From the NCBI GenBank assembly GCA_947497265.1, contig CANMFP010000003.1:124001-188000 (forward strand): 64,000 bases of DNA, written 5' to 3'. Origin of the DNA: an uncultured Isoptericola sp. (lineage in GTDB: Bacteria > Actinomycetota > Actinomycetes > Actinomycetales > Cellulomonadaceae). Under the pieces are notes generated by a model. That model worked only from the letters and a program-made list of their open reading frames with translations, had not been told where the DNA came from and ran no database searches. Both the position numbers and the translations under genes were made by a program. Below are positions 1 through 18,712 of the stretch, in pieces. How positions within the stretch are numbered: the first letter of the stretch is position 1; each line of letters starts with the position of its first letter.

Positions 1-215
1 GCCGCCGCGATCTCCACGAGGAACACCCCCGGGACGATGGGATAGCCGGGGTAGTGGCCGCTCAGGGCCGGGGTGCCCACGGGCAGCACGGCCGAGAACC
101 GGACCGTGCCGGGACCCGCCGCCGCCTCGCAGGACAGGTGCGCGCCCGCGAGGCGGGTGGCCGCGGGCCGGACGTCGGCCGTCAGGTCGGCGGTCCGAGC
201 AGCTCCGGCCGTCAC
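1..215 (-). CDS. FabZ/FabA-like hotdog dehydratase (N-terminal part)
   Basis: The gene starts at a GTG whose first bases overlap the stop of the upstream acyl carrier protein (GTGA), and runs off the window at base 1 after about 71 codons. The visible residues end in HYPGYPIVPGVFLVEIAA, which matches the start of the central helix of FabZ-type 3-hydroxyacyl-ACP dehydratases (family pattern FPGHPILPGVxxxE), including the catalytic-position histidine. It would remove water from the 3-hydroxyacyl-ACP intermediate of the polyketide operon. The catalytic Glu/Asp helix and second half lie outside the window, so a thioesterase-type hotdog is not excluded. Confidence 0.7.
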   Translation of the reverse strand, partial: MTAGAARTADLTADVRPAATRLAGAHLSCEAAAGPGTVRFSAVLPVGTPALSGHYPGYPIVPGVFLVEIAA

Positions 216-463
216 GAGGCCGTCTTCAGCTCGTCGCTCAGCAGGTCGTAGGCGGCCTGCAGGGAGGTGACCTCGGGCAGCCTCTCCTCCTTGAGCTTCA
301 CCTTGTACCGACGCTCCAGCACCATCGTCACCTCGAGCGCCATCAGCGAGTCCACGTCGAGGTCGTCCACGAAGCTCGCGTCGTCCGTCACGTCCTCCAC
401 GTCCTGATCGATCGTGTCCGCGACGAGATTCCGGAGCTCTTCCTTGTCGAGCACAGCCGCCAT
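212..463 (-). CDS. acyl carrier protein (internal start)
   Basis: An 83-residue carrier protein that begins at an ATG preceded by a near-perfect ribosome binding site (AGGAGG, five bases before the ATG). It contains D-D-L-D-V-D-S-L, with the serine that takes phosphopantetheine, and the usual acidic helix pattern. It carries the growing chain for the ketosynthases of this operon. It lies in the same reading frame as the phosphopantetheinyl transferase upstream with no stop between them; the strong internal binding site argues that free carrier protein is produced. A second carrier protein opens the operon at 12152 to 12406. Confidence 0.9.
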   Translation of the reverse strand: MAAVLDKEELRNLVADTIDQDVEDVTDDASFVDDLDVDSLMALEVTMVLERRYKVKLKEERLPEVTSLQAAYDLLSDELKTAS

Positions 464-1108
464 GACTTCCTCCTGGTGGGGTGGTGGTGAGAAGACGCCC
501 GGGCGGGCGCCGTCGAGCTGGTGAAAGGGCAGCGGTCCGGCGGACCGCGCCACGACGTGGACAAGATCAGCGGGCGCGCGCTGGTGCACGACCGACGCGT
601 GGTGGACCGGCCCGAGACCGGCGGTGATCCCGGTGCGCCGCAGCGCCGTCGGCCGCCCGTCGAGCTCCAGGACCTCGTCGCGGAACGCGATCCGGCGCAA
701 CGGCAGGGCGAACCCCACGCCGAGCGCCTTGAGCGCCGACTCCAGGGCGCACCAGCGTTCGATGACGGCGCAGGACTCGTCGTCCGGGCCACCGAGGCCG
801 ACCATGCGCAGACGTTCGGCGAGGGCCTCGCGCTCCCGCAGCGGACGGCACGTCTCGACGTCGACCCCCACGGGCCGGGTCGACGCCGCCGCCGCGACGA
901 CCGCCCGCGAGTGCGCCCACGAGACCCACACGCGCTCGCCGGCCTGGCTGCCCAGCGGGCGACGGCCCGTCCGCGAGCGCAGCTGCACCGGGGCCAGGCT
1001 GCCGGTCAGGGTGCGGACGGCCCGCACGGCCATCGCCCGAGCCGCCGCGGCCTCGGTGCCGGGCTCGACGTCCGTCCCGCACGTCAGCACGACGGTCCGG
1101 TCCCTCAC
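212..1108 (-). CDS. Sfp-type phosphopantetheinyl transferase, in frame with acyl carrier protein
   Basis: This 298-residue reading frame starts at a GTG overlapping the stop of the upstream ketosynthase-like gene (GTGA). Residues 1 to about 200 look like a 4'-phosphopantetheinyl transferase: GVDVE (magnesium-binding acidic motif) and W-C-A-L-E-S-A-L-K (the WxxKEAxxK-like motif). It would load the prosthetic arm from CoA onto the cluster's acyl carrier proteins. No stop codon separates it from the carrier protein encoded at 212 to 463, so the primary product may be a transferase-carrier fusion, with the carrier also made separately from an internal ribosome binding site. The linker, around residues 195 to 215, is rich in proline and histidine. 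Confidence 0.75.
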   Translation of the reverse strand: MRDRTVVLTCGTDVEPGTEAAAARAMAVRAVRTLTGSLAPVQLRSRTGRRPLGSQAGERVWVSWAHSRAVVAAAASTRPVGVDVETCRPLREREALAERLRMVGLGGPDDESCAVIERWCALESALKALGVGFALPLRRIAFRDEVLELDGRPTALRRTGITAGLGPVHHASVVHQRAPADLVHVVARSAGPLPFHQLDGARPGVFSPPPHQEEVMAAVLDKEELRNLVADTIDQDVEDVTDDASFVDDLDVDSLMALEVTMVLERRYKVKLKEERLPEVTSLQAAYDLLSDELKTAS

Positions 1109-2154
1109 GGTGCGTCCTGCGGAAGGCGCACGAGCGCGACGTGGACGGCGCCCTCCCGGTCGGTGCCGGAGATCAGGGCACAGTCCTGCGGCGCGTCCGC
1201 GCCGGCGGCCCGGAGGGCGGCGAGCGCCGCCTGGAGCTGCACGAGCCCGGACGCGGAGCCGACGTCACCGGTGTGCGCGGCGGCGTCGACCACGGAGACC
1301 GTCCGGAACTCTTCCGCGCCGAGGAGGCGTGCCGCGGCGCGCGTCTCGGCGGAGTCGGGGCCGGCATCGCCGGGTGCGACGACGCGGACGTGGGGACGGT
1401 TCGCGGCGGTCGGCTCCGACCCGCCCAGGACACGCTCGAAGAGCTGGTGCAGCACGGACTCGGTCGACTCCGGGTCGATCGCCAGTGCCGAGTCCAGGCC
1501 GAGGATCTCGCCGACCGGCTCCTCGCCGGCACCTCGCGGCTCGACGAGCACGGCCGCGGCCCCCTCCCCGAGCGTCGTGCTCCCTCCCCACACCTGCTCG
1601 AGCCGGGCGCGGGCGGTCGACAGCTCCTCGCTCGCCCCGACGATCATCCGCCGCGCATGGCCGCTGTGCAGCAGCCGCACGGCGTAGGCGAGAGCGGTGA
1701 ACGAGCCGACGTGCCCCGTCGTGACCGTCGCGTTGGGGCCCTGGATCCGGTAGCGGATGGCGCACTGGCCGGCGGCGAAGTTCATCACCGTGTTGGGGAA
1801 TCGTGCCGGGTCGACGTGGAACGGGCGGACGCCGGTGAACGAGTCCCTCGTGAAGTCCATCGTCGACTGGATGCTGCCCATGGTGGTCGCGAGGACGATG
1901 CCGACGTCGGGCAGGTCCGGCGTCTCGTCCCCCGGTCCGGCGTCCATCCCGGGCAGGCGCCCCACCGCGTGCATCGCGAGCCCGGCTGCCCGGTCCAGGG
2001 TGCGGGTGCCCTTGCGCCCGAGGTCACGCCTGATGTCGAAGTCGACGCCGCTCCCCCGGGCCGTCCCGTGCCCGCCGGGCGCGAGCAGGTCGGCAGGTTC
2101 TTGCTGGTTGAGCACGAGGCTCGCAGCCGTGATCTCGGCCAGTGGTGTGTGCAT
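1105..2154 (-). CDS. ketosynthase-like protein with Cys replaced by His (CLF-like)
   Basis: 349 residues of the ketoacyl-synthase fold. Aligning GPNATVTTGHVG with the normal GPxxxxxTACA places His148 where the nucleophilic cysteine should be, and the usual Lys/His pair region reads A-A-H-T-G-D-V-G-S. It therefore cannot form the acyl-cysteine of a condensing enzyme and is best seen as a chain-length-factor-like or accessory subunit. It shares an N-terminal signature (FDxRxxLGRKGxRxL) with two other inactive ketosynthase-like domains of the cluster. The ATG is preceded by AGGAGG six bases upstream. It follows the DsrF/TusC-like gene by ten bases. Confidence 0.75.
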   Translation of the reverse strand: MHTPLAEITAASLVLNQQEPADLLAPGGHGTARGSGVDFDIRRDLGRKGTRTLDRAAGLAMHAVGRLPGMDAGPGDETPDLPDVGIVLATTMGSIQSTMDFTRDSFTGVRPFHVDPARFPNTVMNFAAGQCAIRYRIQGPNATVTTGHVGSFTALAYAVRLLHSGHARRMIVGASEELSTARARLEQVWGGSTTLGEGAAAVLVEPRGAGEEPVGEILGLDSALAIDPESTESVLHQLFERVLGGSEPTAANRPHVRVVAPGDAGPDSAETRAAARLLGAEEFRTVSVVDAAAHTGDVGSASGLVQLQAALAALRAAGADAPQDCALISGTDREGAVHVALVRLPQDAP

Positions 2155-2164
2155 GCCGTGCCTC

Positions 2165-2536
2165 CTAGGCGTACCAGACGTGGTCGTGGGTGGTGAGCGC
2201 CTCGAGCACCCGCTGGGGCGACGCGACCTCGAAAAGCTCGGCGACGGCCTCGGTGACGCCGTGCTGCTCTGTCGCTCGCGCGTCCGCGAGGACCGTCAGG
2301 TCGCGCGCCGCGGCGAGGAGGCTCTGCGCACCCGCAAGGGCTCCCGGCACGTGCTCGTCAGGGGCGGCCGGGGCCGCCACCGCCGCGGCGCCGAGCAGGA
2401 CGCCCTGACCGGTCAGCAGGATCGACGCCCTGCCGAACTGGAGCGCTGCGACCCGTGCGAGGTGCACGGAGTCGGCGAACTGCCGTTCCAGCGCACCACG
2501 GAACGGTCGGTCGACGATGACGAGGACGGACGGCAT
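2165..2536 (-). CDS. DsrF/TusC-like small protein
   Basis: 123 residues. The N-terminus (VLVIVDRPFRGALERQFADS...) has the beta-strand, loop and helix layout of the DsrE/F fold and resembles TusC, the non-cysteine subunit of the TusBCD sulfur relay. Its ATG overlaps the upstream stop by one base (TGATG). It is the last of three consecutive genes of this fold, which suggests a heteromeric complex as in TusBCD/DsrEFH. The family assignment rests on fold pattern and gene order; the substrate is unknown. Confidence 0.55.
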   Translation of the reverse strand: MPSVLVIVDRPFRGALERQFADSVHLARVAALQFGRASILLTGQGVLLGAAAVAAPAAPDEHVPGALAGAQSLLAAARDLTVLADARATEQHGVTEAVAELFEVASPQRVLEALTTHDHVWYA

Positions 2537-2931
2537 CACAGCCTCCCGACCGTGATCGTCCGGCCAGCTGCGCCGACGAACCGGGGGTAGAACATCGCGG
2601 GCCGGGTCCGGACCCCGTCGATGTGCTCCGTCGCGCCCCGCTCGTGGCTGCAGAAGTGGCACACCGCCCAGTCCAGCCGTCCCGGGTGCCGCGCGAGCAG
2701 CTCCTCGACGAACAGGGCGCTCGTCGGGTAGTCGACGTCACGGGCGAAGACGTTCCGGGGCTTGTCACGTTCGAGGCCCGACTGGCTGATCAGGGTCGCG
2801 TTGCCGCACGCCCACACGCCCACGGCAGCGCCCTGGTCGAGCATCGCCGAGGCGAGCGAGAGGGCCGTACCGAGGGCGTCGGACTCGTGCGGAGAGCCCA
2901 GCAGGGTGACCAGGATGTCGCGAGACCTCAT
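2536..2931 (-). CDS. DsrE/TusD-like sulfur-relay protein
   Basis: 131 residues, with an N-terminal MRSRDILVTLLGSP strand and a DALGTALSLASAML helix typical of DsrE-fold proteins. Cys42 (W-A-C-G-N-A-T) and a C-x-x-C pair (Cys91, Cys94 in A-V-C-H-F-C-S) are available for persulfide chemistry; the C-x-x-C is followed by R-G-A, recalling the Cys-x-x-Cys..RG pattern of DsrE. The start overlaps the stop of the upstream gene by four bases. In Tus/Dsr complexes this subunit passes a persulfide sulfur to a carrier; here it may deliver sulfur to a cluster product or carrier protein, which is an inference. Confidence 0.6.
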   Translation of the reverse strand: MRSRDILVTLLGSPHESDALGTALSLASAMLDQGAAVGVWACGNATLISQSGLERDKPRNVFARDVDYPTSALFVEELLARHPGRLDWAVCHFCSHERGATEHIDGVRTRPAMFYPRFVGAAGRTITVGRL

Positions 2932-3224
2932 CGCCACACCACCCGCGTCCGTCCGTCGAGAGCACGTGCGGCGATGTCGTGGTGGGTGAGCCGCGCCGCG
3001 GGGGCGACCCGGTCGCGCAGGCCGCGCCGTACGAGCGCGGCGTCGTCGAAGAGCACCTCGACCCCGCACTCGCGCAGAGCGTCCGCGCGTCCGTGCACCG
3101 CGTCGACGACGAAGTCGTCGGTGGCCACCGCCACCACCGGGTGCCCGGACCGCGCCAGGAGCTCGGGCAGCGGCTCGGCGCCGGCCTGCTCGGGACTGCT
3201 GAGGAGGAACAACCACGGCGTCAT
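2928..3224 (-). CDS. DsrE-fold small protein (TusB/DsrH position)
   Basis: 98 residues, beginning MTPWLFLLSSPEQAGAEPL and continuing with strand-helix repeats (GHPVVAVATDDFVVDAV, GVEVLFDDAALVRRGL) of the DsrE/F/H fold. One cysteine, in R-E-C-G-V, is present. It is the first of three small DsrE-fold genes, and its ATG overlaps the stop of the alpha/beta hydrolase (ATGA). The assignment as the third relay subunit is based on context; by itself the sequence is only weakly diagnostic. Confidence 0.45.
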   Translation of the reverse strand: MTPWLFLLSSPEQAGAEPLPELLARSGHPVVAVATDDFVVDAVHGRADALRECGVEVLFDDAALVRRGLRDRVAPAARLTHHDIAARALDGRTRVVWR

Positions 3225-4174
3225 GTCGTGACCGCCCTCGCCTCGTGGTCGACGCCGTCACGCAGGTGCTCGTCGAGGAAGCCCACGACGTGCTCGACGT
3301 AGCCGGACGGGTCCGCCGACAGCGCACCGAGGTGCGCGGCCCGGGGCAGCACCCAGGTGCGGACGTCCTCCAGGTGGGGGGTCATCGCCGTCACCTCGTC
3401 GGCGGGCAGGAGCCGGTCGCGCCCACCCGCGACGAGGAGCACCGGCAGGCGGCAGCCGGACCGCGGCCACCGCCGCACCGCCAGGATGCCCGCGGCGACT
3501 GCCGGCGCGACCCTGCCGACGATGCGACGGGCCGCCGGTGTCGAGATCCGCTCGTCGCGCCAGGCGAGGGCCGCCGCGAACCGGGCGATGGCACGCCGGA
3601 TGTCGACGACCGGCCCGCTGTCGCAGACCACCGCGCGGAGCCCGAGGTGCTCGGCGCTCGTCGTGGCGGCAGCGCACACCGCGGGCCAGGTGGAGAACGA
3701 CATCGAGAGGCATCCGAGCGTCCCGCTCACGCGCGGGTCGCTGCGCAGCTGGCCCAGGGCGTCGAGCAGGTCCGAGGTGTAGCGCGAGGACATCCCGGTC
3801 ACGCTGCGGCAGCGTCCGCTCTCGCCGTGGTTGCGCATGTCGACGGTCAGCACGTGGAACCCCGCACGGTGCAGGAGCTCGACGTGCGCGAGGGTCTCCG
3901 AGCGCGACCGTCCCACGCCGTGCTGGACCAGCACCGCGTCCGGACCGGTCCCCTCGACGAACCAGCCCTGGATGTCCAGGCGGTCGCGATGCGTGCGCCA
4001 GCTCCAGCTCTCGAACTCGAGGCCACGCGCGTCGGGGGTCTCCTGCAGCGGACGCGGCGCCGGGTGGTACACCTGCCAGGCGACGCCGACGCCGAACCAG
4101 ACGGCCCGCACGGCCGCCGCCGCTTCGCGCCACAGGCCTGTCGTTCGCCCCGTCGCGCCGGTCGGCCGGCTCAC
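3221..4174 (-). CDS. alpha/beta hydrolase
   Basis: 317 residues of alpha/beta-hydrolase type. The nucleophile elbow is degenerate, L-S-M-S-F-S (GxSxG-like with serines), a GRDRLLP segment holds the usual acid, and AAHLG near the C-terminus holds the histidine. The N-terminus has a hydrophobic stretch (VRAVWFGVGVAWQVY) that could touch the membrane. Such enzymes can release or transfer chains from carrier proteins. It joins both neighbours by 4-base overlaps (enoyl-reductase-like SDR upstream, DsrE-fold gene downstream). A second hydrolase of this fold is encoded at 8037 to 8852. Confidence 0.75.
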   Translation of the reverse strand: MSRPTGATGRTTGLWREAAAAVRAVWFGVGVAWQVYHPAPRPLQETPDARGLEFESWSWRTHRDRLDIQGWFVEGTGPDAVLVQHGVGRSRSETLAHVELLHRAGFHVLTVDMRNHGESGRCRSVTGMSSRYTSDLLDALGQLRSDPRVSGTLGCLSMSFSTWPAVCAAATTSAEHLGLRAVVCDSGPVVDIRRAIARFAAALAWRDERISTPAARRIVGRVAPAVAAGILAVRRWPRSGCRLPVLLVAGGRDRLLPADEVTAMTPHLEDVRTWVLPRAAHLGALSADPSGYVEHVVGFLDEHLRDGVDHEARAVTT

Positions 4175-5019
4175 GTCGTCAGACCTTCGCCACCGTCGGC
4201 CGCGATGACGTTGCCCGTCATCCAGCTGCTGCGGGTCGCCACCAGGGCCGACACGACCTCGGCGACGTCGTCGGGCGTCGTGAGCCGCTCGTGCGGGTTC
4301 GCCGCCCGGGCGACGGCGGCCAGCCGGTCGCTGCCGGGGATGCGGTCGAACGACGGCGTGATGGTCACCCCGGCGCGGACCGCGTTCACGGCCACCCCGC
4401 AGGGCGCCGCCTCGACCGCGAGCTGGCGGACGTGCGCGAGCAGCGCCGCCTTGGCCGCGGAGACAGCACCGTAGGACGCGCTGACGCGCGAGTCACCGGC
4501 GCTGGTCATGGCGAGGACGTGGCTGCCACGGCCGAGCAGACCCGCGTCGAGCAGTTCACGGGTCCACCAGACGAGCGAGTGCGCCATCACCTCCAGCGTC
4601 ATGGTCATCTGGCGGGGCGTGAGGAGGGTGGCGTCCTCCCGGCTCTCACCGGGCCGGGACAGGTAGGGCAGCAGCGTGCCGAAGGCCAGCGAGTGGAACA
4701 GCAGCCCGACCCGCACCGGGCCTGCGGACGCGAGGTCGCTCACGATCTCCGCGCACGTCGCGTGCGACGCCGCGTTGGCGTTGACGAACCGGACCTCGAC
4801 CCCGGTCGCCTCCAGGTCCCGGACGACGCCGGCCGCCTCCTCGGCGCGCACGGCGGTGTCCAGGTGGACGCCCAGGATCGACATGCCGTCGGCTGCGAGC
4901 CGACGAGCCACGGCCGCACCCATGCCGCTGGACGCGCCGAGGACGACGGCCCACTCGCCCGTCCGGGTGCCCTGCGCCGGGCGGGACCGCGGCCGGGTCT
5001 CCACGTCTGCTGTGCTCAT
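4171..5019 (-). CDS. SDR with Y-x6-K motif, enoyl-ACP reductase-like
   Basis: 282 residues of short-chain dehydrogenase/reductase type. V-L-G-A-S-S-G-M-G near residue 27 is the dinucleotide-binding loop. The catalytic pair is Tyr183 and Lys190 with six residues between them, the spacing of FabI/FabL enoyl-ACP reductases and not the Y-x3-K of ketoreductases. It would saturate double bonds made by the hotdog dehydratases. No Y-x3-K ketoreductase is visible in the window, so either this enzyme also does that step or one is encoded beyond base 1. Start and stop overlap the neighbours by four bases each. Confidence 0.75.
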   Translation of the reverse strand: MSTADVETRPRSRPAQGTRTGEWAVVLGASSGMGAAVARRLAADGMSILGVHLDTAVRAEEAAGVVRDLEATGVEVRFVNANAASHATCAEIVSDLASAGPVRVGLLFHSLAFGTLLPYLSRPGESREDATLLTPRQMTMTLEVMAHSLVWWTRELLDAGLLGRGSHVLAMTSAGDSRVSASYGAVSAAKAALLAHVRQLAVEAAPCGVAVNAVRAGVTITPSFDRIPGSDRLAAVARAANPHERLTTPDDVAEVVSALVATRSSWMTGNVIAADGGEGLTT

Positions 5020-5888
5020 GGGGTCATGCTCCTGACGGGATCGGATTCGTGGGTACTGACCGGTGAGTGCTCGACGACGACGCCGGTGGCGGCCCCCGAC
5101 GGGTCGGCGACGACGACGGCGAGGTCGTCGCCGTCCCGGACGGCGTCGACCAGCCGCAGAGCACCTGCCAACGGGCCCGGGCCGTCGGACGACGATCCGC
5201 CCGGCTCGACGACCAGCACCGGGACGGATGCGGTCGGCTCGAGGTTCGCCCGCACCAGGCGTGCGGCGCTCGCCGGGTCTCCGGCCACGAACGCCGAGGC
5301 GGTGCGCACGTGCCCGCCGGCCCCGCCGGTGCGCAGCTGCAGCGCGATCGCGCCGCACTCCGTCGGCCTGCCACGGCTCTGCCCGCCGTCGGGCACCTCG
5401 ACGGCCACCACGGTCGCCTCGTCGACACGGCCCAACGCCAGCGCCCGCCGCGCACAGGCGATCGCGTCCAGCACCGCGGTGCCCGTGCTGGTCACGGTGA
5501 CGGACGGGCCGGTGGCGCCCAGGTCGTTCGCCGCGCGGGAGGGCACCAGGTTCACCGAGAAGTACGGCGCCCCGGTCGGCGGGAGCGACTCGGTCCCCTC
5601 GGAGAGGATCCGGCCGTCCAGGTCCGCCAGGCAGTGCGAGGCGGCCGTGCTGGAGCCGAGCCACAGCCCGAGCCGGTCCCCGGCGGTGGACTCCGCCGTC
5701 GACCCGTCCGGAGGACTCAGCCGGCGCACCGCCGCGAGGGCGAGCTGCGCGGGCAGGGGAAGCTGCCGATACCCGCGGCGGCCGAGGTGCTCCCGGACGT
5801 CGAACCACGCGCCGTCGGACGGTATCCGGGGTGCCTCCGGAGCGTCCTCGGGCAGGCAGACGGAGTGTGCGACCACTGTGACGCTCAT
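5016..5888 (-). CDS. short ketosynthase-like protein, Cys replaced by Thr (CLF-like)
   Basis: 290 residues, shorter than a full ketosynthase (about 400). GPSVTVTSTGTAVLDAI aligns with the active-site segment and puts Thr137 in place of the cysteine; the C-terminal His/Lys motifs are not recognisable. It carries the same FDxRxxLGRRGxR signature near residues 29 to 41 as the other two inactive domains. It directly follows an active ketosynthase gene (4-base overlap at 5885 to 5888), the arrangement of a KS/CLF pair, so it is probably its chain-length-factor-like partner. Confidence 0.7.
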   Translation of the reverse strand: MSVTVVAHSVCLPEDAPEAPRIPSDGAWFDVREHLGRRGYRQLPLPAQLALAAVRRLSPPDGSTAESTAGDRLGLWLGSSTAASHCLADLDGRILSEGTESLPPTGAPYFSVNLVPSRAANDLGATGPSVTVTSTGTAVLDAIACARRALALGRVDEATVVAVEVPDGGQSRGRPTECGAIALQLRTGGAGGHVRTASAFVAGDPASAARLVRANLEPTASVPVLVVEPGGSSSDGPGPLAGALRLVDAVRDGDDLAVVVADPSGAATGVVVEHSPVSTHESDPVRSMTP

Positions 5889-7042
5889 GGGACCCCCTGG
5901 AAGACGAGGGTGGCGTTGTTGCCACCGAAGGCGTACGCGTTGACCACGGCCGCCCCGGCGACCGGAGACGGGACGTCGTGCAGGTATCCCGTCATCTGCG
6001 GCATGAGCTCCCCGACGTCGCAGTTCGCCGGGACCTTGCCCTCACGCAGGCACAGCACGGCCATCACGGCGGCGAGCGCACCGGCGCCACCGCCCGTGTG
6101 CCCGATGAGTGCCTTCGCGCTGTAGACGGGTGGCGCGTCCGCCGGCTCCGGCCAGAGGTCGCGCAGCAGCTCGGCCTCGACCTGGTCGTTCAACGTGGTC
6201 CCCGTGCCGTGCGGGACGACCAGCCCGATTCCCTCCGGGGCGAGGCCCGCCTCCTCGAGCGCGACGCTGAACGCGCGCCGCGCCTGCACGCCGTCCGCCG
6301 CCGGTGCGGTCGCGTGCCCGGCGTCGCAGCTGAATCCTGCGCCGCCGAGCAGCACGTCACCGGCCGCTCCGGCGGCCGCACCGTCCGTCCGGTCGAGGAC
6401 GAGGGCGCCCGCACCCTCCCCGAAGGCCGTCCCCGCCCGGTCCACGGCGAAGGGGCGGCAGCGCTCGGGGTCCAGCGCCGCCATCTGGTTGAAGCACCCG
6501 AGAGCCACCCTCGAGTAGGCCTCGACCCCGACGACGACGACCCGGTCGCACTCGCCCGTCGCGATCAGGTCGGCGGCGTGGCCGACGGCGTAGGCACCCG
6601 CGGCGCACGCGTTGGCGACGTTGAGGACGGGCCCCTGGAGCCCCAGTTCGGTCGCCACGTCGGCGGCGATGCCGTACAGCTCCGGCGCCTCCTCGGCCGC
6701 GCCCTCCCGGACGCGCTCCGACTCGCCGCTGTTGCCCATGCACGACCCGACGACCAGCCCGGTGCGTCCCGGTCGCGGTCCAGGGCCGGCGTCGCGCACC
6801 GCCTCGGCTGCCGCCCGGACGGCCAGCCGCCCCGCGCGCGAGCGACCCGGACCGTCGAACGACCGGTCACGCTCGGACGTGCTGCCCGCGACGAGGTGGA
6901 TCAGCCGCACCGGTCCGTCCATGTGCGCGTCACCGATCTCCACCGGTGCCACCACGGCATCGGTCATCCCGTCCCACACCTCGGCGACCGTGCTGCCGGC
7001 ATGGCACACGGCGCCGATCCCGCTGACCTTGGCGAGGGGCAT
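5885..7042 (-). CDS. beta-ketoacyl-ACP synthase (KS), active
   Basis: 385 residues with all catalytic elements of a FabF-type condensing enzyme: Cys146 in N-A-C-A-A-G, His278 in P-H-G-T-G-T, and Lys310/His315 in K-A-L-I-G-H-T-G-G-G-A-G. The C-terminal FGGNNAT is typical. It elongates chains on the cluster's acyl carrier proteins, presumably with the overlapping CLF-like gene as partner. It starts five bases after the double hotdog gene. Confidence 0.88.
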   Translation of the reverse strand: MPLAKVSGIGAVCHAGSTVAEVWDGMTDAVVAPVEIGDAHMDGPVRLIHLVAGSTSERDRSFDGPGRSRAGRLAVRAAAEAVRDAGPGPRPGRTGLVVGSCMGNSGESERVREGAAEEAPELYGIAADVATELGLQGPVLNVANACAAGAYAVGHAADLIATGECDRVVVVGVEAYSRVALGCFNQMAALDPERCRPFAVDRAGTAFGEGAGALVLDRTDGAAAGAAGDVLLGGAGFSCDAGHATAPAADGVQARRAFSVALEEAGLAPEGIGLVVPHGTGTTLNDQVEAELLRDLWPEPADAPPVYSAKALIGHTGGGAGALAAVMAVLCLREGKVPANCDVGELMPQMTGYLHDVPSPVAGAAVVNAYAFGGNNATLVFQGVP

Positions 7043-7047
7043 CGTGC

Positions 7048-12149: not shown

Positions 12150-12151
12150 CC

Positions 12152-12406
12152 CTACTTCCTCGCCAGCGCCTCGTCGACGACGGACAGGACCCCGTCCATG
12201 TTGACCATGCGCGCCATGTCGGCCTGCGCGATGTCGATCCCGAAACCACGCTCCAGCGAGGAGACGATCTCGATCGCCCGCAGCGAGTCGGCGTCGTGGT
12301 CCTCCTTGAACATGCTGGTCCGGGTGACCTCGTCGGGTTCGACCTCGAGGATGTCGCAGACGATGTTCTTGATCTCGTCCTGGATCTCGTCGATGGTGAC
12401 AGTCAT
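12152..12406 (-). CDS. acyl carrier protein
   Basis: 84 residues, with D-A-D-S-L around Ser41 as the phosphopantetheine attachment site and the helix pattern of type II carrier proteins (LEVEPDEVTRTSMF; RAIEIVSSLERGFGIDI). The ATG is preceded by GGAG. It is the first gene of the polyketide operon, about 60 bases behind a predicted promoter. A second carrier protein lies at the far end of the operon. Confidence 0.92.
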   Translation of the reverse strand: MTVTIDEIQDEIKNIVCDILEVEPDEVTRTSMFKEDHDADSLRAIEIVSSLERGFGIDIAQADMARMVNMDGVLSVVDEALARK

Positions 12407-12467
12407 GGCGCTCCGCCCTTGTCGTGAGTTGGGTCCTGGTGTGCCGTGCGGCTGAACGGCCAGGACG

Positions 12468-12555
12468 AGTCTTGGCCGGACGCCGGGGCGGACCAAGGGT
12501 TCCGGCATGAAGGTGCAAGGCGGCCGTCTCCCCGGCGAGGGGCGTGGCAGCAACC
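12468..12555 (-). promoter_or_regulatory. promoter and operator of the polyketide operon
   Basis: Read on the minus strand, this region holds GGTTGCTGCCA (12555 to 12545), an imperfect palindrome GCACCTTCATGC (12516 to 12505), a -35-like TTGGTC (12496 to 12491), a 17-base spacer and a -10-like AAGACT (12473 to 12468), ending 61 bases before the carrier-protein ATG. The same four elements occur at nearly the same spacing before the terpenoid operon at 18522 to 18608, which is the main evidence. The palindrome sits eight bases upstream of the -35 in both, the place of an activator site. Confidence 0.65.
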
Positions 12556-12601
12556 GGTCAGTCCTGTACGCGGACGGGGGGCCGGTCCCTCAGCGGGCGC
12601 C

Positions 12602-13276
12602 TCAGGCCCGGACCGCGGGCAGGCGGCGCAGGAGGGCCACGTAGGCGACGTCGGCGACCAAGCAGACGACGTACAGCACGGTCAGGAGCGGTCCCCGTGC
12701 GAAGTCGTCGCGGCTGAAGAAGAACATGGCCAGCGAGAAGAGAGCGGTCCCGACGAGCTTCGCGACCGCGATCGGGATCGACTGCCCGCGCCGGTCACCG
12801 CGCGCCAACGCCATCTGCACGAAGCAGAGAGACATCATGACGTTGATCCCGAAGATGCAGTAGGCACCGCCGTAGTCGTCGAACTCGGCGATGAACGACA
12901 GCTGCAGCACGGTCGCGACGGCGATCGCCAGGGGAACCGTCAGGCGGCTCCACCGGGCGCCGAGCGACGGCAGCTCCCGGGGGACGTAGCGGATCACCTG
13001 GCAGACGATCACGACGTCGACCGCCGCCCACAGGAAGTTCGACCAGCGCAGCAGACCCTCGGCCGGGTGGACGACCGCGAAGATGAGCTCGTTGCCGATG
13101 TTCGCCGCCAGCGCCGCCAGCGGCATGCCGTAGGTGCGGTCCAGGAACCCCCGACGGACCACCAGGACGTACGCGAGGAGCCACGCGAGGGTCCCCAGAC
13201 CGCTGATCACCGTGAAGACGGTGGCCGCCGGCACCGAGCCCAGCGCCAGCGGCAGGTCGGCGCTCGCCGGGATCAT
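12602..13276 (-). CDS. Pyr4/PaxB-like integral membrane terpene cyclase
   Basis: 224 residues with about seven hydrophobic segments. The size, the topology and the motif N-I-G-N-E-L-I-F around Glu63 match the small membrane terpene cyclases (Pyr4, PaxB and bacterial relatives), where a conserved glutamate near residue 63 and an aspartate in the last helix act in protonation; here Asp209 in V-A-D-V-A-Y fits. It would cyclise the prenyl chain attached by the UbiA enzyme. It is the last gene of the terpenoid operon, overlapping the diphosphate synthase by four bases. Assignment is by motif and context. Confidence 0.65.
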   Translation of the reverse strand: MIPASADLPLALGSVPAATVFTVISGLGTLAWLLAYVLVVRRGFLDRTYGMPLAALAANIGNELIFAVVHPAEGLLRWSNFLWAAVDVVIVCQVIRYVPRELPSLGARWSRLTVPLAIAVATVLQLSFIAEFDDYGGAYCIFGINVMMSLCFVQMALARGDRRGQSIPIAVAKLVGTALFSLAMFFFSRDDFARGPLLTVLYVVCLVADVAYVALLRRLPAVRA

Positions 13277-14328
13277 CGCGTCCGGCCACGCAGTGCGGTG
13301 AGCACCTCCCGGAGCACGGACACACCCGGGGCGTCCCCGAGCGCCGTCAGCGCGTCGCCGGCAGCGGCGAGAGACTGCCCGGCGAGCTCCGTCCCTCGTC
13401 GCAGGTTGCCTGTCCCGGCGACGATCTCGACGACCGCCCGGTGGTCCTGGTCGACGTCCGGCGCCGCGAAGAAGGCCTCGAGCACCCGCCGCTCGGACGT
13501 GGTGCCGTGCTCGTACGCCGTCACCACGGGCAGGCTCGCGCGCCGGCACCGCAGGTCGCTCTCCGGTGACTTCCCCGACTCCTCGTGCGTGCTCAGGTAC
13601 GGGAGCAGATCGTCCTGCACCTGGAACGCCAGGCCGAGCTGGTTCCCGTACTGCCGCAGGAACCCGCGGTCGTCGTCCGCCCCGGCGACCACCGCCCCGA
13701 GCTCGGCGCACACCCGCAGGATGGAGGCGGTCTTGAGCATGACGACGCGGCGGTAGGTGTCGAAGGTCAGGTCGGCACGGACGGTCGCCTGCTCCTGCAG
13801 CACCTCTCCCGAGCAGAGCTCGTGCCCCATCGCCGCCACCAGCCGCACGGACTCCGCGACGGTCGCTGCCGGGAGGCCGCTCTCGGCGATCGCCCGGAAC
13901 ATGGCGAAGATCAGGGCGTCGCCCGTCAGGAGCGCACTCTCCGTGCCGTACGCCGACCACACGGACGGCCTCCCCCGCCGCGTCCGGTCGCCGTCGATGA
14001 TGTCGTCGTGCACGAGGCTCGCGGAGTGCCCCACCTCCATGGCGACCGCCACCTTCGCGACGGCCGAGAGGTCGGCCCCGCACCCGGCGGCGGCGGCCAG
14101 CATGATCAACGGACGGACCATCTTGCCCGCGGGCAGGCAGGCGTGCTCCATCGTCACCCGCAGGCCCGCGCCGCCCTCGAACGGCAGGGTGCGCAGGAAG
14201 TCCTCGAGCCCGCCGCGCGCCACCCGCAGCAGGTCGTCACGGGAGAGGTCCGTGGCGGTCCGGACGCCCGGACCGGGCACGCCCAGCGGCCGGACCGGGC
14301 GGGCCGACGTCGACGGGGCGGTGGTCAT
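13273..14328 (-). CDS. polyprenyl (GGPP-type) diphosphate synthase
   Basis: 351 residues of the trans-isoprenyl diphosphate synthase family. The first aspartate-rich motif is D-D-I-I-D at 108 to 112, followed by R-R-G-R-P. The second is D-D-L-L-P at 239 to 243, in which the last aspartate is replaced by proline; Lys253 of the following G-K-S-P-x-S-D-L is kept. It makes the allylic diphosphate donor for the UbiA prenyltransferase; C15 to C20 chain length is a guess. Both ends join their neighbours by ATGA overlaps. Confidence 0.85.
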   Translation of the reverse strand: MTTAPSTSARPVRPLGVPGPGVRTATDLSRDDLLRVARGGLEDFLRTLPFEGGAGLRVTMEHACLPAGKMVRPLIMLAAAAGCGADLSAVAKVAVAMEVGHSASLVHDDIIDGDRTRRGRPSVWSAYGTESALLTGDALIFAMFRAIAESGLPAATVAESVRLVAAMGHELCSGEVLQEQATVRADLTFDTYRRVVMLKTASILRVCAELGAVVAGADDDRGFLRQYGNQLGLAFQVQDDLLPYLSTHEESGKSPESDLRCRRASLPVVTAYEHGTTSERRVLEAFFAAPDVDQDHRAVVEIVAGTGNLRRGTELAGQSLAAAGDALTALGDAPGVSVLREVLTALRGRTR

Positions 14329-15719
14329 GCTGGGCTCACCGCCAGCCGGACCGGCCCCGCGACGCGTCCCAGCGGGGCGTAGACGTGCCGCGGGGCACGG
14401 ACAGCCGCGGGTCTCGACGGGTGGGCGATCTCGGCGCTCCGGAGCAACGTCGCGAAGACGGTCCGCACCTGCCGCTCGGCGAGCTGTCCGCCGACGCAGG
14501 CGTGCGGACCGACACCGAACGGCATGAAACCCGGCATCGCACCCCCGCGCACGCGCGCACCCTGCTGCCTCCGGTCGGGCGCGAAGCGCTCCGGGTCGAA
14601 CCGGTCGGGCTCCGGCCACGACGACGGGTCGCGCAACCCCGAGCCGAGCAGCCCGAAGACGAGACTGTCGCGCGGGATGGGCCTCCCGGCGACCTCGCAC
14701 TCCACGACGTTGCGCCGCATGACGTGCGAGGCGACCGGGTAGAGCCGCATCGACTCCCGCCAGACCATCCCGACGGTCTGCAGGGCGTCCTCGCCCGGAG
14801 CGGCGTCGTCGCAGACCTCGGCACGGATCCGCGCCTGCCAGTCCGGCGCGGAGGCGAGGAGATGGGCCATGCTGGCCGCCGAGTTCGCCGTCGTGTCGAA
14901 GGCCGCGAGCATCGTCGAGACGAAGGTGCGGACCAGCGTGTCGTCGTCCGCCCAGTCGAACGTGCCCCGAGCGGCCCGGAACCGGCTGAAGAGGTCGGGG
15001 CCGTCGACGCCGTCGCGCAGCCGGGCCATCAGGGCGTCGTGGAGCGTGCGGTACGTGCCGAGCAGGGGCCGGCGGACCAGGACGCCGGCCGGGCCGAGCG
15101 CAGGGGTGAAGCTGGCACGCCACAGGTTCGCGATCGCACGGTCGAGCTCACGCGCGCGCCGAGGATCGCGTATCCCGAGGAACGTCAGCGCCGTCATGTC
15201 CGCGAGGAGACGCCGGACGTCCGCCGCGAAGGAGGTCCGTCCCGACGCGACCCAGCCTGCCACCGCCCGGCGCACGAGCTCGCGACAGCCCGCCGCCGTG
15301 CCGTGACCGACGAGCTCCGGGGACAGCAGACGCCGTACGTCGCGATGCGGCGGCCCGTCGAGCGTCAGGATGCCGTCCCACCCCTGGATGCGGGGGTCCA
15401 TCCCGGACAGGTAGAAGCCCCAGGCCGAGGCGGCCGACCAGATCCCGTCACGGTTGCGCGCCATGCGGGCGACGGCGGCCGGGTCCGCCACGCACACGAT
15501 CGGGTCGACACCGAACATGTGCCGGTAGACGGGTCCGTGGCGTTCCCGCTGCCGCCGCAGATGGTCCTCGCCCCGCGTCGCCCATCCCACGAGGTTGGTC
15601 AGGCCGGCCGGGATGCCGGACCGTCCGGGGAGTTCCGACAGGTCGCGCGCGGGCCTGGTCCGGGGCACCCGTCGATCACCGCCGGGCGGGACGGCGACGG
15701 GCGTGCTCACCCGTGTCAT
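14325..15719 (-). CDS. cytochrome P450
   Basis: 464 residues. The heme-binding loop is F-G-V-G-P-H-A-C-V-G-G with Cys408; the I-helix oxygen-activation motif is A-F-D-T-T-A-N; the K-helix E-x-x-R is in W-R-E-S-M-R. It would oxidise the prenylated or cyclised product, for example by hydroxylation or epoxidation. No ferredoxin is visible nearby, so electrons must come from elsewhere. It sits in the middle of the terpenoid operon with 4-base overlaps on both sides. Confidence 0.93.
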   Translation of the reverse strand: MTRVSTPVAVPPGGDRRVPRTRPARDLSELPGRSGIPAGLTNLVGWATRGEDHLRRQRERHGPVYRHMFGVDPIVCVADPAAVARMARNRDGIWSAASAWGFYLSGMDPRIQGWDGILTLDGPPHRDVRRLLSPELVGHGTAAGCRELVRRAVAGWVASGRTSFAADVRRLLADMTALTFLGIRDPRRARELDRAIANLWRASFTPALGPAGVLVRRPLLGTYRTLHDALMARLRDGVDGPDLFSRFRAARGTFDWADDDTLVRTFVSTMLAAFDTTANSAASMAHLLASAPDWQARIRAEVCDDAAPGEDALQTVGMVWRESMRLYPVASHVMRRNVVECEVAGRPIPRDSLVFGLLGSGLRDPSSWPEPDRFDPERFAPDRRQQGARVRGGAMPGFMPFGVGPHACVGGQLAERQVRTVFATLLRSAEIAHPSRPAAVRAPRHVYAPLGRVAGPVRLAVSPA

Positions 15720-16480
15720 GACGAGGTGGTCGGGCTCGCCAGGTACACGGTGCAGATGCCGTTGCTCATCGGGCGCACCGTGACGTCCCCGAACCCGGCG
15801 TCCTCGAGCATCGTCCGGAACGCGCCGGGCGACGGGAACGTGGCGACCGACCGTGGCAGGTACCGGTAGGCCGCGGGGTCCGCCGACAGCACCCGGCCCA
15901 CCAGCGGGACGAACGTGCGGAAGTACGTCCAGAAGCCCAGCCGGAAGAGCGCTCCTCGTGGCCGGGAGAACTCCAGCACCAGGCACTCGCCGCCCGGAGC
16001 GAGGACCCGGCGCATCTCGGCCAGGCTCTCCTCGAGAGCCTCGAAGTTGCGCACCCCGAACACGGCGGTGACGAGGTCGAACCGGTCGTCGTCGAACGGC
16101 ATGGACGCGCAGTCGCCCTGGACGAGAGTCACCTGCGCGTCGGGCGCCTCCTTGGTGACCCGGCCCCGTGCGAGGCTCAGCATGCCGGCCGACAGGTCGA
16201 GACCCGTCACCTCGTCGACGTCCAGCATCCGGTGCAGGTCGACGATCATGTCCCCCGTCCCGGTCGCGACGTCCAGGGCACGGCCGGGGCGCCGACGGCT
16301 CAGCATCTGTATCGCTCGACGCCGCCAACGGCGGTCGAGCCCGAGACTGATCACCCGGTTGAGGGCGTCGTACCGCTCGGCGATCGAGTCGAACATCGAC
16401 CCGATCTGCGCCGTCTTCGCGCGGTCGTCCGCGTACGGCGTCACCCGTGCCGCCTCGTTCTTCGTCTCCTTGCGTGTCAT
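15716..16480 (-). CDS. UbiE/MenG-type C-methyltransferase
   Basis: 254 residues. FDSIAERYDALNRVISLGLDRRW and the SAM-binding A-L-D-V-A-T-G-T-G-D are characteristic of demethylmenaquinone/ubiquinone C-methyltransferases, followed by NGICTVY in place of the usual C-terminal GIVALH. In this context it is more likely dedicated to the cluster than to menaquinone, because it is translationally coupled to the prenyltransferase and the P450. It implies a quinone- or phenol-like prenylated intermediate. This could also be a housekeeping MenG recruited into the operon. Confidence 0.85.
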   Translation of the reverse strand: MTRKETKNEAARVTPYADDRAKTAQIGSMFDSIAERYDALNRVISLGLDRRWRRRAIQMLSRRRPGRALDVATGTGDMIVDLHRMLDVDEVTGLDLSAGMLSLARGRVTKEAPDAQVTLVQGDCASMPFDDDRFDLVTAVFGVRNFEALEESLAEMRRVLAPGGECLVLEFSRPRGALFRLGFWTYFRTFVPLVGRVLSADPAAYRYLPRSVATFPSPGAFRTMLEDAGFGDVTVRPMSNGICTVYLASPTTSS

Positions 16481-17574
16481 GGCGCGTCGATCCTCTCGGG
16501 TTCCTGGGGGTGTCGGCGCCACCGGAACACGCCGTTGCCGGACAGCCAGAACGCCGCCGGCAGGAAGCTCACGACCGCACAGGCCACGAGCAGCCACCGG
16601 TCCACGGGGTCGACGCCGGGCGGGGTCGGCAGCAGCGCCGTGGCGAGCAGCATGCTCGACCCGATGAGCACGAAGTTCCGGTAGACGAAGAAGTCGCTCA
16701 TCTTCCTCATGAAGTACGTGTGGTCACGCCACCGCCGCATGAACCGGAACGTCTCGACGGCGTGGAGGATCGCGGCGGGGAGCGCCACCAGGTAGAGCGG
16801 CCGGTCCACGGCCAGCCCGCACAGGAGCCCGACGACGACGATCGCCGTGACCCACGGGACGCGCGCGGCGTACTCCCTGCCGTACCGGACGACGAGAGTC
16901 CGCTTGCCGCCGGCCGCGTCCTCCTCCAGGTCCAGCATCTCCTGCACGTGGAGGCTGCCGAACCAGATGACCCCCAGGACGACGGAGACAGCGACCACCT
17001 GGAGGTCGAGGGAGGCGACCAGGTTCCAGCTGCCCGTGTCCGTGACGTCGGCGCCGGAGCCCAGCCGCAGCGCGAGGTAGGCCGAGCACACGAGGACGGG
17101 GCCGAACGCGACGAAGTTCGCCAGCTCGCCCAAGCCGTTGTACGACAGCTTGACGACGGCGTTGTACCCGAAGAGGAAGAAGAACCCCACCGCGACGCAG
17201 AGCAGGAACCGCCAGCCGACCTGGCTGATGATGACTCCCAGCAGGACCGCGTAGACGACCAGCAACGTCCAGAAGAACCGGCGCACCGACTCCATCCGCA
17301 GCCGCCGGCCCGTCAGGACGCCGCTCCCTCCCGAGAAGAGCGTCCGAGGGTCGGACGACTCCGCCGGGAACTCGTTGCGGTAGTGCTGGAAGTCCTTGAT
17401 CTCGTCCCACACCTCCATGAAGGCGTGCGAGGTGAAGGCGGCCGCGACGACGACCGCGGCGAGCCATGGCTTGCTGTAACCCTCCGACCACGCCTGGAAG
17501 ATGCCGGCCGTCGCGGCCAGCGTGCTCGCGATCGTCCAGTGCGGGCGGATCAGCCTGAAGTACGCCGAGCTCAT
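16477..17574 (-). CDS. UbiA-family aromatic/polyketide prenyltransferase
   Basis: 365 residues with eight or nine membrane segments. Two acidic motifs of the family are present: E-V-W-D-E-I-K-D (Asp57, Asp61) and M-L-D-L-E-E-D (Asp215 to Asp219). UbiA enzymes transfer a prenyl group from an allylic diphosphate to an aromatic or related acceptor in the membrane. The donor probably comes from the diphosphate synthase of the same operon and the acceptor from the polyketide operon. It overlaps both neighbours by four bases. Confidence 0.88.
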   Translation of the reverse strand: MSSAYFRLIRPHWTIASTLAATAGIFQAWSEGYSKPWLAAVVVAAAFTSHAFMEVWDEIKDFQHYRNEFPAESSDPRTLFSGGSGVLTGRRLRMESVRRFFWTLLVVYAVLLGVIISQVGWRFLLCVAVGFFFLFGYNAVVKLSYNGLGELANFVAFGPVLVCSAYLALRLGSGADVTDTGSWNLVASLDLQVVAVSVVLGVIWFGSLHVQEMLDLEEDAAGGKRTLVVRYGREYAARVPWVTAIVVVGLLCGLAVDRPLYLVALPAAILHAVETFRFMRRWRDHTYFMRKMSDFFVYRNFVLIGSSMLLATALLPTPPGVDPVDRWLLVACAVVSFLPAAFWLSGNGVFRWRRHPQEPERIDAP

Positions 17575-18455
17575 GGCGCCGTCCCCTCCTCGGAGAATGC
17601 CTGTGCCAGCACGAAGATCTCCGCGGGGCCGGCCACGACCTCCGGGCGCTCGCAGCCGGAGGCCACCAGGATGCGACGCACCTGGTCGGCGAGCGCCGTC
17701 GGACGCTGCTCGTCGAACCGCCCCGAGTCCGGGTCGTACATCCCGTGGACCTCACCGCCCGGCGCCTCGTCGCACACGTACCCGTTCGGCACGGAGTAGA
17801 CGAGCGTGCCGCCTGGACGCACCATGCGACGGGACTTCCGGACGAACTCGCCGACGTCCACGGAGGTGCTGTTGACCGTCCGCAGGGCGAAGAACAGGTC
17901 GAACGCGCCGGCCGGACCGTCCCAGCCCTCGAACGTGCTGTTCGTGCAGCGGACGGCGTCGTAGTCGTGCAGATGGGTCCCGGCGGCCGACAGCGCGCGC
18001 GTGCTCACGTCGACCAGGTGGAGCTCGACGCGGGGGTCGGGGACCAGCATCCGCACCTCGCGGGCGTCGTTCACGCCGACTCCCAGCGCCGAGCGCACGC
18101 CGACGCGCGGCAGCCGGTCCCGGATCGGTGCGGACCACGTCGTCGGATAGAGGTCGCGCAGGTCGTTGACCTCGTCCCAGCGTCCGTACTTGTCGTCGTA
18201 GGCGCCCCGGAGTGCCGAGAAGACCGTCGCGGCGAACGTCTCCAGCCCTGCACGCCGACCGGTCCGGCGCCAGGCCGCCTCCAGCGCGGCGTCCGAGCGG
18301 GCGTCTCGCGGGTGGAGGTCGGCGGGGTCGATCGGCCCGACCGACCCGCTCAGCCTGCTCCGGAAGGCCTCGACGATGCTCAGCTCGCGGTGCGGTCGCG
18401 CGGGCGCTGGACCCGCCGCCGCGGCCACCGCCGTCGGCTGCCCTGCCGCGGTCAT
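17571..18455 (-). CDS. class I SAM-dependent methyltransferase-like protein
   Basis: 294 residues from an ATG at 18455; a GTG at 18491 preceded by AAGGA would add 12 residues and is an alternative. A Rossmann core is visible: A-L-G-V-G-V-N-D (motif I position), VELHLVDVS, a central FDLFFALRTVNS and the later MVRPGGTLVYSVP. The long N-terminal part is mostly helical. It is the first gene of the terpenoid operon, about 66 bases behind a predicted promoter. The methyl acceptor is unknown. Confidence 0.7.
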   Translation of the reverse strand: MTAAGQPTAVAAAAGPAPARPHRELSIVEAFRSRLSGSVGPIDPADLHPRDARSDAALEAAWRRTGRRAGLETFAATVFSALRGAYDDKYGRWDEVNDLRDLYPTTWSAPIRDRLPRVGVRSALGVGVNDAREVRMLVPDPRVELHLVDVSTRALSAAGTHLHDYDAVRCTNSTFEGWDGPAGAFDLFFALRTVNSTSVDVGEFVRKSRRMVRPGGTLVYSVPNGYVCDEAPGGEVHGMYDPDSGRFDEQRPTALADQVRRILVASGCERPEVVAGPAEIFVLAQAFSEEGTAP

Positions 18456-18521
18456 CGTCGACCCGCGCAACACGTGGCGATCATGGCGCACCGTCCTTGT
18501 CTCCGATCGAGTCCTGGCGGG

Positions 18522-18608
18522 AGTCTTCAGCAGCGGAGTCGGCGGCCAAAGGCTTTCGGCATGAACATGCAAGGGCCGGCGTCGACACCTTCCCGGGTGG
18601 CAGCAACC
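18522..18608 (-). promoter_or_regulatory. promoter and operator of the terpenoid operon
   Basis: On the minus strand: GGTTGCTGCCA (18608 to 18598), the perfect palindrome GCATGTTCATGC (18570 to 18559), a -35-like TTTGGC (18550 to 18545), a 17-base spacer and a -10-like AAGACT (18527 to 18522). The spacing between -10, -35 and palindrome is identical to that before the polyketide operon at 12468 to 12555, and the upstream box differs by one base. The rest of 18456 to 18712 shows no other clear element except possibly the start region of the divergent GNAT gene. Confidence 0.68.
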
Positions 18609-18712
18609 AGACACGGTGCCCGGCCCGGCCCGGGCACCCACGCGCCGCTGGTGCTCCGTGCGGGCCGCGCCCACCGGGTCGGCGCGCCCGCCCCGGGTTA
18701 AAGTGCCTCACC

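Follow-up and report, generated by a model that had tools for sequence, protein, structure and literature searches.

Cinnamoyl-lipid highly reducing type II polyketide synthases (PKSs) are known from the gla cluster of Streptomyces globisporus C-1027, which makes globisporamic acid, and from the ysf cluster of the youssoufenes. The products of the gla cassette are free acids; globisporamic acid is partly saturated, and no enoyl reductase is reported in the sections of that account drawn on here (PMC9381841). The ring of such aryl acids is formed, in the published scheme as excerpted from PMC10054270, by isomerisation, 6pi-electrocyclisation and dehydrogenation. For kitacinnamycin, ring closure is ascribed to three proteins, Kcn17-18-19, in the part of PMC9321520 consulted. 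Bacterial pathways with a Pyr4-like terpene cyclase are called largely unexplored in the portion of PMC13307353 used, where zigralone provides a bacterial precedent for epoxidation by a cytochrome P450 followed by the action of the cyclase. The locus described here combines genes of both types and lies in a 64-kb window (C3:124001-188000) of the 3.77-Mb genome of an uncultured Isoptericola sp. It consists of a PKS operon and a terpenoid operon, and the evidence supports their being one co-inherited, probably co-regulated cluster in this genome. That this single cluster directs the synthesis of a C20-class cyclised meroterpenoid along with an aryl fatty acid, the two perhaps joined in one product, is a reading for which we consider the balance to be even. 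Unless stated otherwise, coordinates are those of the window and all cluster genes are on the minus strand.

The case for one unit rests on an empty site and on an element found upstream of both operons. In the genus relative G186, 38 bp separate the left neighbour of the cluster (DNA identity 90%) from its right neighbour (83%), and the GNAT and MFS genes are kept; in this genome the same neighbours are separated by 24,659 bp, with both halves inside. The full block absent from G186, as delimited by BLAST edges, is C3:118003-142661, of which 1..18661 falls in the window. At the same site, two small genes lie in the 1,254 bp of G008; in G074 and G1108 the left neighbour is kept, no homology is seen on the right, and the site is unreadable. 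No match at E 1e-5 to either the double 4HBT (hotdog) protein of the PKS operon or the UbiA protein of the terpenoid operon was found in the 17 other genomes of the genus, and gain of the whole block is therefore simpler than repeated loss. The block measures 24.7 kb, has defined borders and is on one strand except for a regulator gene. Neither an integrase nor a transposase was recognised in it, and no 14-base match common to both border regions was found within 400 bases on each side. Inside the window the cluster genes run from 18473 down to 1, with starts and stops overlapping or closely spaced within each operon, and the cluster continues for about 6 kb past the left edge. The two operons are on the same strand, and 195 bp separate the end of the terpenoid operon from the first gene of the PKS operon. 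The original prediction had joined both operons in one cluster, and for this genome the empty site and the shared element support it.

The shared element was obtained by alignment of the operon upstream regions; copy 1 (12503..12555) precedes the acyl carrier protein (ACP) gene and copy 2 (18557..18608) precedes the first methyltransferase gene. The local alignment of the regions upstream of both first genes scored 44, a value reached by none of 1000 dinucleotide-type shuffles, none of 1000 mononucleotide shuffles (highest 42) and none of 2941 random window segments. When 2010 upstream pairs were compared, one pair scored above (48) and one tied (44), both in homologous coding sequence, which leaves the element pair as the best non-coding one. 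The pair scoring 48 consists of two ketosynthase (KS) coding ends; the tying pair consists of the nucleotide-binding motifs of the short-chain dehydrogenase/reductase (SDR) and of the ketoreductase (KR), whose true start is upstream of the called start. Within 84 kb, exact matches to the combined element are confined to these two sites, the next best having 8 mismatches in 27 positions; the exactness is by construction, as the pattern was taken from the two copies. Copy 2 is inside the methyltransferase frame if a longer start is used. A promoter and terminator scan of the inter-operon region found nothing. As judged from these alignments, the support from the shared element is good but not overwhelming.

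The PKS operon starts with an ACP gene (12152..12406; PF00550, E 4e-10), followed by KS1, the ketosynthase of pair 1 (10884..12149; 6kxd_A, E 1.3e-136), a fused KS and chain length factor (CLF) forming pair 2 (8849..10873; Cys-His-His in the KS half, no Cys in the CLF half), the thioesterase-like alpha/beta hydrolase ABH1 (8037..8870; PF12697) and the double 4HBT protein (7048..8028; PF13279 in two stretches). Next come KS2 (5885..7042; Cys-His-His present) and CLF2 (5016..5888; PF00109, E 1e-9; no Cys motif), the two members of pair 3, and an SDR of the enoyl-reductase type with a Y-x6-K motif (4171..5013; PF13561, E 7e-37; best model FabL, under its cut-off; start codon uncertain). The operon goes on with a second alpha/beta hydrolase, ABH2 (3221..4174; PF12146), three small proteins, a CLF that is the probable partner of KS1 (1105..2154; no active-site Cys; best solved relative 6kxd chain B, E 5e-40) and a phosphopantetheinyl transferase (PPTase, ACPS domain) in one open frame with a second ACP (212..1108; PF01648 and PF00550). 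At the window edge it is cut in a double FabA/FabZ-type dehydratase (DH), whose N-terminal 71 aa are encoded at 1..215 and which continues to the left (L002:5256-6215; PF07977 E 5e-12 in two stretches; fabZ models E 4e-22 and 4e-21). The ACP of the PPTase-ACP frame could also be started alone, from an internal ATG at 463 that has a Shine-Dalgarno-like stretch.

Three KS with Cys-His-His and three partners lacking the Cys are thus present: KS1 with the CLF at 1105-2154, the fused KS-CLF, and KS2 with CLF2. This refines the set of KS, KS-CLF and CLF-like genes listed in the original prediction. KS1 and its CLF are 9 kb apart and match chains A and B of one solved heterodimer, 6kxd, which we take to be the ishigamide KS/CLF; the fused KS-CLF matches separate KS and CLF places in relatives. 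A Pfam scan of the genes named in the prediction gave five proteins with ketosynthase-type domains, two carrier-protein domains, 4HBT, SDR, UbiA, polyprenyl synthase, UbiE, P450 and Pyr4-TMTC. Together with the coordinates, the scan confirms that gene list, its minus-strand placement and the overlaps; chance reading frames were ruled out by the consistent Pfam matches and the gene order. The predicted hotdog dehydratases are present, with the correction that the hotdog protein in the window is mainly the double 4HBT protein and that, of the dehydratase, no more than the first 71 aa lie inside. The label of enoyl-reductase-like SDR is borne out by the Y-x6-K motif, which was also found in both homologues inspected (L156:3367-4161 and L152:23256-24098). 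KR, DH, ACP and an isomerase resembling HCCA/GST-kappa proteins are all present in the cluster. No gene for a nonribosomal peptide synthetase (NRPS) was recognised among the Pfam-scanned proteins of the block, and a one-sequence NRPS profile was also without match in the window region.

With this content the PKS half fits, by its predicted genes, a cinnamoyl-lipid highly reducing type II PKS with three KS/CLF pairs, of the globisporamic acid/youssoufene type, and is already known in kind. The comparison with gla and ysf was made by description and not by sequence. Judged by the gene letters in the sections of PMC9381841 used, the order ACP-KS1-pair 2-pair 3-CLF1-ACP-DH-DH-KR-isomerase is identical; gla too has three KS/CLF pairs, with GlaE and GlaQ split far apart and F-G and J-K adjacent, and its ACPs are D and R, its dehydratases S and T, its KR U and its isomerase GlaV. 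The gene order of the locus also fits that of G1046, G1296 and G1238. The locus differs from gla in that the PPTase, which is GlaB near the start of gla (PMC9381841), is in one frame with the second ACP, that the KS and CLF of pair 2 form one protein, as do the two dehydratases, and that a six-gene terpenoid operon is attached; terpenoid genes are not mentioned in those sections of the gla account. The original prediction recognised no described cluster with this set; that stands for the whole gene set in the open-access literature, and falls for the PKS half. Clusters for cinnamoyl-containing nonribosomal peptides (kitacinnamycin, skyllamycin, epoxinnamide) have the polyene PKS machinery and the isomerase in common with the locus (PMC9321520 and PMC6510318, as excerpted); the locus differs from them in having no recognised NRPS gene within its 24.7-kb block.

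For searches in other genomes the double 4HBT protein was chosen as the cassette marker, because KS-CLF was too unspecific: KS-CLF matched 255 of 396 genomes of the order (this genome included), and the listed non-self matches (29-41% identity) were taken as general ketosynthases. The 4HBT marker was found in 12 of 393 other genomes of the class at E 1e-8, in seven plasmid records, all Streptomyces, and at 58 places spread over 51 of the 333 genomes in the genus of G999 (presumably Streptomyces). From these, 53 other cassette places were assembled (42 of the 58 places in the genus of G999, 10 of the 12 class genomes and three of the seven plasmids, two genomes being in both lists); the 16 places left out in the genus of G999 include several on short contigs. 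KS1 was present at 52 of the 53 places, the CLF at 50, the KR at 52, the isomerase at 52, KS2 at 20, the SDR at 17 and small protein 2 at 17. KS1 identity was 55-62% in most cassettes and 48-51% in a few. KS2 and CLF2 accompanied the SDR at every one of its 17 places. Because the SDR is found only with KS2/CLF2 and has the Y-x6-K motif, we infer that pair 3 and the SDR extend and saturate the chain, which suggests the SDR as a candidate enoyl reductase of the cinnamoyl-lipid PKS. The third pair and the SDR would also suggest an origin for partly saturated aryl chains such as that of globisporamic acid. Prenyl synthase genes, without UbiA or Pyr4, were seen near six of the 53 cassettes (e.g. 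L151:6771-8168).

The three small proteins between ABH2 and the CLF were absent from the list of the original prediction. Small protein 1 (2928..3224) and small protein 2 (2536..2931; homologues 43-49% identical) are perhaps DsrE-like, and small protein 3 (2165..2539) is a candidate ring-closing partner. The triad recurs in order in L150, L156 and L157, where the counterpart of small protein 3 occupies the same place at 29-31% identity. The DsrE Pfam model matched small protein 2 with E 0.12, under its cut-off; it matched three of eight scanned homologues with E 0.0071 to 0.2, all under the cut-off (E 0.0071 being the small protein 1 homologue in L157), and a glycosyltransferase model was higher in two. 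In PDB profile searches the best matches were YchN for small protein 2 (E 0.036) and yheL for small protein 1 (2d1p_C, E 0.029), with unrelated chains next in both. Small protein 3 gave no Pfam match and a weak match to a uroporphyrinogen-III synthase model (E 0.0012). Modelling the structure of small protein 2 from its single sequence gave a poor result (mean pLDDT 45.9). By analogy, the triad may be the counterpart of the ring-closing proteins Kcn17-18-19.

The terpenoid operon comprises, in order, a class I methyltransferase (17571..18473; PF08242, E 6e-8), a divergent UbiA-family prenyltransferase (16477..17574; PF01040, E 4e-16, 59.4 bits against a cut-off of 34.2), a UbiE/MenG-like C-methyltransferase (15716..16480; PF01209, E 1.5e-58), a cytochrome P450 that is a candidate prenyl-chain epoxidase (14325..15668; PF00067, E 2e-40; I-helix and haem motifs), a prenyl diphosphate synthase (13273..14328; PF00348, E 2e-56; DDIID motif) and a Pyr4-like transmembrane terpene cyclase (12602..13276; PF25129, E 1.1e-24, 87.8 bits against a cut-off of 27). 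The start of the first methyltransferase is uncertain: 18455, 18473 or 18491 fit, and longer starts up to 18674 are possible. UbiA has two Asp-rich motifs, at residues 57 and 215. Small residues before the first Asp motif of a prenyl synthase go with a product of C20 or longer; such residues precede this motif here, and the product is therefore probably C20 or longer. E63 and D209 of the Pyr4-like protein, invariant in a six-sequence alignment, are presumably the catalytic pair, as judged by Pyr4. This half is rare: UbiA has only two weak matches among the 393 other class genomes, and the best relative of the cyclase in the genome scan has 46% identity; UbiA had no match in plasmids. The zigralone cluster (zig) likewise brings together a polyprenyl synthase, a UbiA-like prenyltransferase, methyltransferases, a P450 and a Pyr4-like cyclase; it differs in that the acceptor derives from tryptophan with a TPP enzyme, and a PKS is not listed in the portion of PMC13307353 used. 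The cyclase is 43% identical to that of Longimycelium (L080), whose locus was taken as zig-like by eye.

A route was proposed from these assignments. By comparison with the known relatives of the cassette, the three KS/CLF pairs, the KR and the double dehydratase would build an ACP-bound polyene, in which the GST-kappa/HCCA-type cis-trans isomerase would turn one double bond Z and the small-protein triad would help to close an ortho-substituted benzene; pair 3 and the Y-x6-K SDR would extend and partly saturate the chain to give a cinnamoyl-lipid or aryl fatty acid. Going by the enzyme families, the prenyl diphosphate synthase would supply a C20-class chain, UbiA would transfer this chain to an aromatic acceptor, and C-methylation by the UbiE-like enzyme, epoxidation of the chain by the P450 and its folding into rings by the Pyr4-like cyclase would follow. 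In the last and least certain step the halves would be joined, with either a hydroxylated aryl polyketide as the UbiA acceptor or the aryl acyl chain attached to the terpenoid later. To serve as acceptor, the aryl polyketide would have to carry a hydroxyl, and either P450 could supply it.

The most far-reaching reading is this joined hybrid, in which an aryl lipid from a benzene-forming highly reducing type II PKS and a Pyr4-cyclised C20-class terpenoid give a cinnamoyl-lipid meroterpenoid, a new hybrid class, from two operons captured as one block under a shared promoter element; we hold it tentatively, as at or a little short of an even balance. Several points weigh against a single cluster with a joined product. 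The expected aryl product would offer UbiA no phenol unless a P450 adds one, and no ligase or acyltransferase joining the halves was recognised. The insertion site was readable in only two of the four relatives fetched. The upstream element was found post hoc and in two copies only; the next-best upstream pairs reach 40, at chance level; the element was not seen in other cassettes (the best of 42 had 7 mismatches), and its exact second part was found, among 271 loci, only in five overlapping ones, all from this genome. UbiA, UbiE, Pyr4 and the first methyltransferase were found at none of the 53 other cassette places; flanks were below 17 kb on one side in several of these loci (e.g. G573, G1041, G1320, G1226, G1252), and the UbiA profile, which gave a match in L185 and L186 but no match in a further nine control loci, among them the zig-like L080 as far as its flank extends, could miss a distant UbiA. 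NRPS-like genes, detected with a profile built from one ORF taken for an NRPS by eye, were near 31 of the 53. As the cassette occurs without UbiA, UbiE and Pyr4 at all 53, it needs no terpenoid partner. The PKS half is in this sense conserved separately, which the original prediction had named as evidence against its own claim; no second copy of the terpenoid operon was found. It is the same 53 places that favour the view of an ordinary cinnamoyl-lipid cluster beside which an unrelated terpenoid operon landed by chance. That view is nevertheless unlikely in the face of an empty site lacking either half, the common strand, the 195-bp gap, the shared upstream element and the absence of both markers from the rest of the genus. 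The same block and the same element, which favour a single pathway, also count against the main alternative, which is possible at well below an even balance, namely that the block makes two products that act jointly with no covalent link: a free aryl fatty acid of the globisporamic acid kind, and a prenylated, methylated and cyclised 1,4-dihydroxy-2-naphthoate (DHNA) or similar quinol. For two products speak the free acids made by the gla cassette (PMC9381841, in the sections used) and the make-up of the trio UbiA, UbiE and polyprenyl synthase, which is that of quinone prenylation and C-methylation by the menaquinone genes MenA, MenG and polyprenyl synthase. The nearest named models of UbiA are mostly of the MenA type (seven of nine NCBIfam matches), and the UbiE-like enzyme passes the MenG/UbiE NCBIfam equivalog and subfamily cut-offs (240.5 against 216 and 233.5 against 158.35 bits). 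Moreover, the genome has another full MenG/UbiE match (C1:209250, 37% identical to the enzyme of the cluster) and five other UbiA-family genes, which would make the cluster copies spare. The likeness to MenA and MenG thus suggests that primary metabolism supplies the acceptor, as a quinone-type compound, which is a further point against the joined hybrid. On the other side, UbiA remains far under the MenA (DHNA prenyltransferase) equivalog cut-off (best 56.4 against 225 bits), and the locus differs from the menaquinone genes by this and by the added Pyr4-like cyclase and P450. Of the predicted prenylated and cyclised polyketide, the terpenoid half fits a meroterpenoid by its families; the polyketide itself is only a possible prenylated partner.

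A further alternative is that the Pyr4-like gene encodes a related membrane protein with another function. The scan for related genes was carried out with two peptide patterns, which distant Pyr4 groups may escape, and the best 80 of 261 relatives were kept; among these the closest has 46% identity, and none showed a match to the window UbiA or prenyl synthase nearby at E 1e-4. The closest relatives (46%; Rubrobacteraceae and unplaced actinobacteria) showed no UbiA or prenyl synthase match in the surrounding DNA covered, some of which is short, and only 264 of 1107 bacterial candidates were retained when terpenoid neighbours were required (PMC13307353, in the portion used), which would fit a non-cyclase. 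Such a function is all the same rather improbable, given that the gene overlaps that of the prenyl diphosphate synthase and shares the operon with UbiA and the P450, that both acidic positions are conserved, and that one of the more distant Pyr4 loci, L052 (35% identity), likewise lies close to prenyl synthase and P450 matches, as the only one of seven regions from the phylum sample. In that sample the Pyr4 family was present in 10 of 396 genomes, this genome included. Pyr4-family genes with no match to the window UbiA or prenyl synthase nearby were seen to be widespread among the best 80 of 261, as in L056, L059 and L065 (Rubrobacteraceae/Rubrobacter) and in L111, and the same pattern was seen in ammonia-oxidising archaea (L061, L063, L064, L066, L070 and L071; Nitrosopumilus and relatives).

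The whole gene set was not found in the open-access literature; the locus may be among the 264 bacterial Pyr4-like cyclases listed with PMC13307353. The PKS half in kind and the cyclase family are already known; what is new is the pairing, together with the gene fusions and a UbiA that is rare. In the literature examined, cinnamoyl-lipid PKS products are peptides, free acids or lipids, and the joined hybrid, if true, would be a new fate for such a PKS and would give the bacterial UbiA/Pyr4 pair a new acceptor. The cluster is a possible source of a new hybrid natural product and, being a compact 24.7-kb block with defined borders, could be cloned whole.

Beyond the left window edge the cluster goes on with the remainder of the dehydratase and the ketoreductase, then with a protein resembling DsbA/HCCA isomerase, a further alpha/beta hydrolase and another P450. 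An SRPBCC-like protein, assigned weakly (24.2 bits against a cut-off of 27.4), is also encoded there, as is, on the opposite strand, a helix-turn-helix (HTH) regulator that is LuxR-like just under the cut-off, likewise a weak assignment. The frame of the left P450 (L002:1165-2958) stays open for about 200 codons beyond the domain, antisense to the LuxR-like gene, and its 3' end is uncertain. Extension of the cluster further to the right was ruled out: GNAT, LacI and MFS genes follow, then a DUF3352 gene and DISARM-like defence genes. The latter, at window positions 27476-52573, encode a DruM/DrmMII-like DNA methylase, DrmB, DrmA, a UvrD-type (GajB-like) helicase, a TmtA-like giant helicase, a DrmD-like SNF2 helicase and a type IIG or DrmMI-like enzyme, and the region resembles a DISARM locus, possibly intermixed with other systems. 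A GmrSD-type (type IV restriction) protein is encoded next to these genes, at window positions 54734-56647.

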